A stretch of 64,000 nucleotides of DNA from Parapontixanthobacter aurantiacus (GTDB taxonomy: Bacteria; Pseudomonadota; Alphaproteobacteria; Sphingomonadales; Sphingomonadaceae). Shown here piece by piece: positions 15,717 through 16,900 of this stretch; within the stretch, counting starts at the first letter, position 1, and each line of letters starts with the position of its first letter. The stretch covers positions 1,320,001-1,384,000 of the forward strand of contig NZ_WTYW01000001.1 in the NCBI RefSeq assembly GCF_009827635.1, given 5' to 3'. The notes under the pieces are model-generated. The model did not search any database and was not told the origin of the DNA. It saw nothing but the letters and a program-made list of their open reading frames with translations. A program made the position numbers and the translations under genes.

Positions 15717-16061
15717 TCAGGCCGCGCGGACGAGGCAGGCGGGCCCGGCAGCGACGGGTTCGAGAGCGCGCAGCAAGTGCTCGATCGCCTGCGGCTTTAC
15801 GAGCCACTGGGCATGGAGACGGGCGAGCGGGCGGTCGCCCCTCGCAAGATCGATGACGACCGCTTCGAGGCTGCGCTCATGCGCGGTGACATCGGCACTG
15901 CCCGGCTCGGCGACCTGCACCGGCGCCCGTCCCGCATAGCGCAGGACGGCCTCGGCGCGTTCGAGCGACCATTTCGCCACCCGGGCCGAAGCACCGCGGC
16001 CGAAAGTCGCATCGTCATTTGCATGACAGCCGTGCCAGACCGTCCTGAAATTCTCGATCAC
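15717..16061 (-). CDS. Hypothetical protein, 114 aa, with upstream Fur-box-like site
   Basis: I do not recognise this 114-residue protein. It begins IENFRTVWHGCHANDDATFGRGASARVAKW, with Trp, His and Cys close together near the N-terminus. The remainder is helical-looking, with many Ala, Arg and Leu and no signal peptide or membrane segment. A 21-base near-palindrome resembling an alphaproteobacterial Fur box lies at 16080-16100, 19 bases before the ATG, which suggests iron control. The third-position GC bias of the frame supports real coding. Function unknown. Confidence 0.65.
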   Translation of the reverse strand: MIENFRTVWHGCHANDDATFGRGASARVAKWSLERAEAVLRYAGRAPVQVAEPGSADVTAHERSLEAVVIDLARGDRPLARLHAQWLVKPQAIEHLLRALEPVAAGPACLVRAA

Positions 16062-16079: not shown

Positions 16080-16100
16080 TGCTATTGAGAATGATATGCA
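16080..16100 (-). promoter_or_regulatory. Candidate Fur box upstream of the 15717-16061 gene
   Basis: The minus-strand sequence TGCATATCATTCTCAATAGC, plus one A, compares with the alphaproteobacterial Fur-type consensus TGCAAATGATTCTCATTTGC, plus A, at 17 of 21 positions by eye, including both TGC/GCA ends and the central ATTCTCA. It lies 19 bases upstream of the start codon, where bound Fur would block transcription initiation or elongation. Confidence 0.6.
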
Positions 16101-16137
16101 ACTGGCGCGATGTCAACCTTCGGAGGAGCCGGGACAA

Positions 16138-16166
16138 CAAAAAAGGCCGGAGCATCGCCCCGGCCT
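16138..16166 (-). terminator. Rho-independent terminator after the Cys-rich small gene
   Basis: On the minus strand GGCCGG and CCGGCC arms (16165-16160 and 16150-16145) enclose a nine-base loop and are followed by six T residues (16144-16139). It lies about 30 bases beyond the stop codon of the small Cys-rich gene, which should therefore end as a single-gene transcript. Confidence 0.75.
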
Positions 16167-16193
16167 CTTTCCGTTCGGTATTCGATCGAATGG

Positions 16194-16358
16194 TCAGGCG
16201 ACGGCGCGCTGACTTTCTTCAGGCACGAACTCACCGCACCAGTCGTCGGCTGCGACAGTCGGCCAATGCGCCTTTTTGTCACCCTCGGCGGGCGACGGGG
16301 CATAGCGACGGCATTCGCTTTGATTGTCGTTATAGAACTTGCAGGCGGAACATTGCAT
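16194..16358 (-). CDS. Small Cys-rich protein (54 aa), candidate metal or Fe-S binder
   Basis: This short gene reads MQCSACKFYNDNQSECRRYA near its start and WPTVAADDWCGEF near its end. It has four Cys arranged C-x2-C-x9-C and a later Cys in DWCGEF, alongside conserved-looking aromatics and the WP...DDWCGEF signature. Small proteins with this pattern occur in many proteobacteria without an assigned function; the spacing suggests a single metal or Fe-S site. A GAGGAG ribosome-binding site precedes ATG 16358. It has its own terminator and a Fur-box-like site about 85 bases upstream, pointing to iron control. Confidence 0.8.
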   Translation of the reverse strand: MQCSACKFYNDNQSECRRYAPSPAEGDKKAHWPTVAADDWCGEFVPEESQRAVA

Positions 16359-16441
16359 GAGTGGTCTCCTCAATCGTCGGTCTACCCAAACAATGCTGTT
16401 TTATCACGGCTGGTTCCGAAAAACGAACAAATTCAACATCT

Positions 16442-16462
16442 TAGTATTGATAATCATTAGCA
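16442..16462 (-). promoter_or_regulatory. Second candidate Fur box, upstream of the Cys-rich small gene
   Basis: The minus-strand sequence TGCTAATGATTATCAATACT, plus one A, agrees with the Fur-type consensus at 15 of 21 positions. It contains the core TAATGATTATCAAT and is less symmetric than the 16080 site. It lies in an AT-rich spacer (16359-16633) in which I see no gene, 84 bases upstream of the Cys-rich gene. Confidence 0.45.
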
Positions 16463-16633: not shown

Positions 16634-16900
16634 TCATAGTTCATCTAGGTAAGCCAAGCCCATAAAATAGCCGGCCGCCCATGACAGCCAAACCGGCCAC
16701 AGCATAAACGCCACCAACATTGCGAAAGGAACCGTGCCAAAAGGGTTGATCCCGGTGGCGACAATAAACATCCAAACTGGGAGCAGCCCGACGAAGAAAG
16801 GCCTTCGCCCACGAGTTATCCATCGAGCATGAGCACTTAACATTGTTATAGATAAGGCCGCGACGAATACGGCGCCACAGACTAAATACACCGTAATCAT
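16634..16900 (-). CDS. Hypothetical small membrane protein (88 aa)
   Basis: The 88-residue product has three hydrophobic stretches (about residues 3-22, 34-50 and 58-80) separated by short basic or polar loops such as RWITRGRRP. It looks like a three-helix inner-membrane protein. It starts 20 bases after the peptidylprolyl isomerase stop on the same strand and has no strong ribosome-binding site. Base composition here is more AT-rich than in the neighbours, consistent with acquired DNA. No family recognised. Confidence 0.5.
   Translation of the reverse strand: MITVYLVCGAVFVAALSITMLSAHARWITRGRRPFFVGLLPVWMFIVATGINPFGTVPFAMLVAFMLWPVWLSWAAGYFMGLAYLDEL

Follow-up and report, generated by a model that had tools for sequence, protein, structure and literature searches.

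Bfd, of the Fer2_BFD family, carries four cysteines. It is a protein of about 60 residues made in iron starvation, and in one study it was 56.96-fold up in iron-limited Caulobacter (PMC3751524). Other small cysteine proteins are found among the accessory subunits of glycyl radical enzymes: according to PMC12358834, MASS-beta, MASS-gamma, BSS-beta and HPAD-gamma are HiPIP-like and hold a [4Fe-4S] cluster, with cysteines 32, 35, 51 and 86 in the solved MASS-beta subunit.

The gene considered here lies in a window of 64,000 nucleotides from Parapontixanthobacter aurantiacus (NZ_WTYW01000001.1, positions 1,320,001 to 1,384,000) and encodes a 54-residue microprotein. Its best fold matches are the glycyl-radical-enzyme accessory subunits (BSS beta/gamma, HPAD gamma, MASS beta/gamma; BssC_TutF, HPIP_like). 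Like the microprotein, these subunits are small and have one CX2CXnCXnC set with variable spacing of the third and fourth cysteines; the MASS-beta spacing falls in the range of the microprotein's family. Unlike them, the microprotein has predicted Fur-like control and weak sequence matches, and no glycyl radical enzyme gene was recognised at the locus, where the window neighbours were judged from ORF translations. With HiPIP (PF01355), to which its family gives weak Pfam and profile matches, it has in common the C-x2-C-x-aromatic start and the C-x2-C-xn-C-xn-C and WC-x2-aromatic pattern. Unlike HiPIP, it has a longer C3-C4 gap (24), DWC in place of GWC, and no N-terminal extension that would serve as an export signal peptide, since, as read from its sequence, the CxxC begins at residue 3. 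Bfd is similar in length and in its production during iron starvation, the latter predicted for the microprotein, but belongs to another family and occurs mostly in genomes without the microprotein gene; the window protein has no match to Fer2_BFD, and its own genome has none at E 0.001.

No usable name came from searching Pfam, NCBIfam, PHROGs and PDB sequences with the window protein alone, and neither the family profile A3 nor the relative L088 matched any PDB sequence. The exact string DWCGEF was not matched in the literature searched, and the consulted parts of PMC12358834, PMC3751524 and PMC4618611 contain no account of the microprotein gene.

The microprotein gene and its Fur-like box

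The gene occupies 16194..16358 on the minus strand, with its ATG at 16358 and its stop at 16194-16196, and the ORF translation places cysteines at C3, C6, C16 and C41 (C-x2-C-x9-C-x24-C, ending in DWCGEF). A Shine-Dalgarno sequence, GAGGAG (16366..16371, minus strand), stands 7 bases 5' of the ATG; the alternative longer TTG start in the ORF list reads through it. A sequence-only reading of this DNA had proposed the four-cysteine ORF, a ribosome-binding site and a terminator of its own, and all three have held up. Compared with the 93%-identical ortholog L017, differences at the three codon positions number 3, 2 and 23, affecting 19 synonymous and 4 non-synonymous codons; because changes concentrate at third codon positions, this is a real gene. 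GGAG just before the ATG is kept in seven of the eight sequences compared (the window, L017-L022 and L024, with L023 left out), the exception being L024, which has AAGGAT. The intrinsic terminator is located at 16136..16175 on the minus strand, between the microprotein gene and a second gene described below, and thus outside 16194-16462, the interval that the sequence-only reading had covered. Its fold, at -25.3 kcal/mol (z -4.19), was equalled in stability by 0 of 200 shuffles. A consensus scan did not list it, probably because the T tract pairs in the stem.

The window neighbours are presumably miaB, phoH, ppi and mgtE, as recognised from ORF translations. Between the ppi and microprotein genes sits an ORF for an 88-aa putative membrane protein (16637-16900, minus strand; no Pfam or NCBIfam match). 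The L017 locus has no room for this ORF, the distance from the end of ppi to the microprotein gene being about 175 bases there.

A candidate Fur box had likewise been proposed 84 bases upstream, and this proposal is confirmed. The box at 16442..16462 (minus strand, TGCTAATGATTATCAATACTA) matches 15 of the 19 positions of the E. coli Fur consensus used for scoring, which 0 of 200 dinucleotide shuffles reached, and the matching 19-mer stops 84 bases short of the ATG. In eight of the nine clade-A genes (the window and L017-L024), no more than 2 of the 200 shuffles did as well as the observed box; L018, whose box is degenerate, is the exception (13 of 200). The clade-A matches lie 83 to 128 bases 5' of the ATG, and the conserved block of the upstream alignment is the box itself, so that the orthologs share an upstream Fur-like box as genes of a Fur regulon do. 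The ORF list contains no plausible plus-strand gene near the box.

In the organism's own genome, the box sequence has 6 sites at three or fewer mismatches (0 for the reversed control pattern), and a degenerate version has 5 (control 0). Besides the window's own box, the first search thus gives five sites; three are next to or upstream of FeoB, TonB receptor and PepSY_TM genes, and these boxes imply a Fur gene in the organism. A further site, with 2 mismatches, directly precedes the gene of a 184-aa protein (L125:1532-2083) that has no Pfam match at 1e-4, and the remaining one falls inside a long open frame and was taken as chance. Given the conserved box and the similar sites beside iron-uptake genes, the iron regulation anticipated by the sequence-only reading is, as a prediction, well supported by comparison, and we infer that Fur represses the gene.

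The second gene and the wider family

The second gene of the pair (15717..16061, minus strand, GTG start) encodes a 114-aa protein for which neither Pfam nor NCBIfam gives a family up to E 10. Its own Fur-like box, at 16081..16099 (GCTATTGAGAATGATATGC on the plus strand), lies 19 bases before the GTG and is weaker, matching 12 of 19 positions, a score reached by 8 of 200 shuffles. The second gene adjoins the microprotein gene in all eight orthologs (L017-L024), and the pair is kept although its surroundings change: miaB and ppi accompany it only in L017 and L019 and are absent within 3 kb at the other six of the eight loci. Throughout clade A the second-gene boxes match 12-13 of 19 positions and stand 16 to 27 bases before the start; seven of the nine were reached by 8 or fewer of 200 shuffles, the others being L017 (29) and L019 (16).

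These eight close orthologs of the microprotein, 70-93% identical and drawn from the genome_contigs collection, come by their titles mostly from Erythrobacter-like bacteria, together with two MAGs and one Novosphingopyxis. A second subfamily, clade B (L016, L112, L113 and L114), is 45-47% identical and reads DWCGHF. Three of its four loci have Fur-like matches (reached by 0, 1 and 0 of 200 shuffles), the box of L113 being weak (42 of 200). The distance is 104 bases in L016, 210 in L114 and 230 in L112, and because of this 210-230-base separation the boxes of L112 and L114 may serve something else. A related second gene with its own box is present at three of the four clade-B loci (not L113), with 15 of 19 positions matched in L112 and L114 (0 of 200 shuffles) and 13 of 19 in L016 (2 of 200). 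The second-gene groups of clades A and B aligned gap-free over 73 columns at 76.6% (E 2.1e-5 in a single comparison). A clade-A-only profile, run against 7,972 open frames, recovered the second genes of L112 (2.4e-5) and L114 (3.9e-4) and gave no match to that of L016.

Among 396 genomes of the order, the clade-A second-gene search gave five matches, of which three were strong and all in carriers, while two weak ones fell in genomes without a microprotein match (G393, 1.0e-5; G298, 9.5e-5, with a stop); this search was not sensitive, since it did not list the clade-B second genes. In G393, for which the order-genome search listed no microprotein match, the frame at L137 1270-1773 (reverse-strand count) matches the second-gene profile at E 2.2e-8 when the Thioclava row is omitted. 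Thioclava has a 152-aa gene in the second gene's place. Its strong hit to profile A8 arises because the Thioclava row is part of A8; with its own row left out it reached only E 0.031, and it was not counted as a relative. No second gene was found at L113, within the 3-kb loci L216 and L217, or within 8 kb at the Paracoccus locus L213.

Family matches occur in 3 of 59 relatives (single-sequence search), 13 of 396 order genomes and 12 of 385 class genomes (wider search). Eight other members in the order stand at loci without a Fur-type box, so the Fur-like box is not general to the family. The strongest class-search matches besides the window, L216 and L217, are DWCGHF members from two other families of the class, and L216 has a TGCAACGCATTCTCA site upstream. 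Paracoccus (L213) and Thioclava (L214) have a common motif, ATCAACTATTTGTTTTT / GTCAACTATATGTTTTT, upstream of a DWCG[QH]F gene. The Iron-Rhodo-box, an iron-responsive box of Rhodobacteraceae, has the consensus TGA-N9-TCA; the common motif might be such a box, and nothing is drawn from it here. An Opitutales relative (L028:2971-3162) has a TonB receptor gene on each side and a FUR-family gene two genes downstream, and a Fur-like site (14 of 19; 4 of 200 shuffles) precedes its ATG by 78 bases. The DWCGEF family is also frequent on viral contigs, with 103 confirmed relatives, of which 80 were kept (L031-L110). Eight members found by profile, with no fixed DWCGEF requirement (L115-L122), all keep four cysteines, with the residues round the fourth changed. 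The phage protein family phrog_15838, of unknown function, matches 16 of 53 family members (best 6.1e-9) and the window protein only weakly (0.0088).

HiPIP-like features and the possible bound metal

Fifty-three diverse members, mostly from viral contigs, have C3, C6, C16 and DWCGEF in common; that CxxC and DWCGEF do not vary in A3 partly reflects the way members were selected (scanning by DDWCGEF, with cores cut by these motifs), while the third cysteine was not a selection criterion. Near-duplicates had been removed before the rows of A3 were fixed, and 4 of 56 cores (L008, L009, L080 and L084) were dropped for ambiguous cysteine choice. When the 53 members were scanned against 24,736 Pfam models at E 1, the most-matched families were three HiPIP-like ones: HIPIP with 9 members (best 1.2e-4), BssC_TutF with 7 (best 3.8e-4) and HPIP_like with 6 (best 8.7e-3). 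Other families matched one or two members, NinE and ZF-HD_dimer two each. No match reached the Pfam gathering score where scores were shown; L053, for example, scored 16.8 bits against HIPIP, for which the gathering cut-off is 22. In a Pfam check of ten members, only L053 matched the HiPIP-like families, each time below cut-off. Up to E 10 the window protein has no match to any of the HiPIP Pfam families, and HIPIP (PF01355) has no match at E 1 in its own genome.

Profile comparison was made with HiPIP as the one Cys-rich family compared, using an alignment of 23 rows from 24 loci (L172 left out). A3 matched it at 78% over 26 columns, with three cysteines in register and the fourth outside; the close-clade profile A1 matched at 42.8% over 20 columns.

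The structure model of the window protein is poor (pLDDT 70.5), and a PDB fold search with it returned one match, 2y8n_B (E 6.8; VIA Z 3.3, rmsd 2.1 over 42, chain residues 1-50). Because the window model gave this one match, the relative L053 was also modelled (pLDDT 85.1, pTM 0.64). Foldseek returned 27 matches for it within E 10, of which none had an E of 0.001 or less; ranks 1-7 and 13 are HiPIP or HiPIP-like accessory subunits. All 13 entries listed by VIA, from 46 chains, are likewise HiPIP or HiPIP-like accessory subunits. The best of these was again 2y8n_B, with rmsd 2.3 over 48 and a Z of 4.4, which is in the range where chance matches are common; the regions aligned to it differ, namely 1-50 with the window model and 36-86 with the L053 model. 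Pfam, profile and model searches, each weak alone, thus point to a [4Fe-4S] HiPIP-like fold as the nearest known one. The predicted binding of a metal or Fe-S cluster is supported indirectly, in that divergent members retain all four cysteines and the VIA entries listed for L053 are all HiPIP or HiPIP-like subunits, and we infer that the microprotein likely carries a [4Fe-4S] cluster.

Two other occupants of the cysteines deserve consideration. The sequence C-x2-C ... C ... C is also a zinc pattern, and the protein could be a Fur-controlled, zinc-ribbon-like binding or regulatory microprotein with one zinc ion; the two ZF-HD_dimer hits (best 0.083), which include the window protein, fit this, as do single-member hits to Zn_ribbon_recom (0.015), C1_1 (0.051) and Ribosomal_L32p (0.098). 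The same Pfam scan, however, has 22 member-hits to the three HiPIP-like families, and none of the 13 listed VIA entries for L053 is a zinc protein, so that zinc seems unlikely. A rubredoxin-like redox protein with a single iron has a precedent in MASS-delta, which, according to PMC12358834, bound one Fe with a similar CX2CXnCXnC motif where a cluster had been expected. The MASS-delta cysteines (3, 6, 32 and 35, same source) nevertheless form two CX2C pairs, whereas in four-cysteine members of the present family a single CX2C is followed, about 7 to 27 residues on, by an isolated third cysteine. The absence of rubredoxin from the listed Foldseek and VIA matches also speaks against a rubredoxin-like reading without refuting it, and on balance we rate that reading as very unlikely.

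Scarcity of bacterioferritin and Bfd in the carriers examined

In the genomes examined, the Fur-type microprotein gene is negatively associated with bacterioferritin (Bfr) and Bfd. Bfr was found in 1 of 13 Fur-type carriers (9 clade-A and 4 clade-B genomes) and in 41 of 46 non-carriers (Fisher 6.5e-8), and standalone Bfd in 1 of 13 and 38 of 46, respectively (Fisher 1.2e-6); these p-values overstate the evidence, given the relatedness of the genomes and the presence among the carriers of two MAGs whose completeness is unknown. Standalone Bfd was defined as a Fer2_BFD match at E 0.001 in a frame of up to about 210 aa, some of these matches scoring under the curated threshold, and longer frames, whose length is NirB-like, were not counted. 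The genomes were hand-picked, from earlier search outputs plus six reached through L019-L024, and members were divided into Fur-type and others once the upstream sequences had been seen. Seven genomes with other members only (G226, G246, G250, G256, G340, G361 and G395) did not enter the two main Fisher tests; they have Bfd in 4 of 7 cases and Bfr in 4 of 7, and their best box matches reach 9 to 11 of 19. Within the genus g57, none of the 3 carriers has both Bfr and Bfd, while all 7 others do (p 0.008); G226, among these seven, has a family member without a box.

The absence of standalone Bfd from 12 of 13 carriers might suggest that the microprotein replaces Bfd as electron donor of bacterioferritin; yet the same 12 have no bacterioferritin match either, hence none to serve, and this barely conceivable substitution was dropped. 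It is possible, though we do not think it the better account, that the association reflects shared ancestry or sampling only and that the microprotein has an unrelated role in iron starvation, which would be compatible with the gene, box and fold as read here. The genomes are indeed related and hand-picked, the sole carrier with Bfr is also the sole one with Bfd (G699), Bfr is also missing from 5 of the 46 genomes that do not carry the gene, and the carriers G701 and G702 are the MAGs of uncertain completeness. Against this, the pattern recurs inside one genus, in a different subfamily (0 of 3 carriers versus 7 of 7 others). A domesticated phage gene that has no iron function and lies near a Fur box by chance would explain why viral-contig relatives are so common and why phrog_15838 matches 16 of 53 members, but the box is kept across genera and changed gene neighbourhoods, and the eight order members at loci without such a box show that it does not simply travel with the family; this explanation is highly improbable.

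The safest statement is that the locus encodes a Cys4 microprotein that is cytoplasmic, HiPIP-like and Fur-controlled and belongs to a conserved gene pair. The fuller reading, to which we incline by a little, is that of a Fur-repressed cytoplasmic HiPIP-like [4Fe-4S] microprotein belonging to an iron-starvation gene pair in lineages mostly without bacterioferritin-Bfd. When iron is plentiful, Fur-Fe2+ would occupy the box at 16442-16462 and block transcription; when iron is scarce, a short message ending at 16136-16175 would be made. In the resulting cytoplasmic protein, a single [4Fe-4S] cluster would most likely be bound by the four cysteines within a minimal HiPIP-like fold, for which the accessory subunits of benzylsuccinate synthase and 4-hydroxyphenylacetate decarboxylase may serve as the model. 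An Fe-S protein made when iron is short would need justification, although Bfd is such a case. The microprotein is probably induced together with the second gene, and both probably cooperate in iron starvation, the microprotein perhaps assisting the release or reduction of iron as a small redox or cluster-bearing accessory; its redox or accessory role and any contact with the second protein are conjecture. Because the carriers examined mostly lack both bacterioferritin and Bfd, a plain replacement of Bfd is unlikely; the readings left are a different path for releasing or reducing iron and a function as accessory to a larger enzyme. The most far-reaching version, a Fur-controlled two-gene system in place of bacterioferritin-Bfd, comprising a cytoplasmic, minimal HiPIP-fold [4Fe-4S] microprotein and a partner from a family not found in Pfam, passed between Alphaproteobacteria lineages and with phage-borne relatives of the microprotein, appears quite unlikely.

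The co-located second gene, the HiPIP-like fold and the link with missing bacterioferritin go beyond the sequence-only reading. Small Fe-S proteins of iron starvation, of which Bfd is the known case, mark cellular iron release or reduction. If the fuller reading is true, the pair would point to an uncharacterised way of handling scarce iron and would provide the first functional handle on the unnamed DWCGEF family, so frequent on viral contigs.
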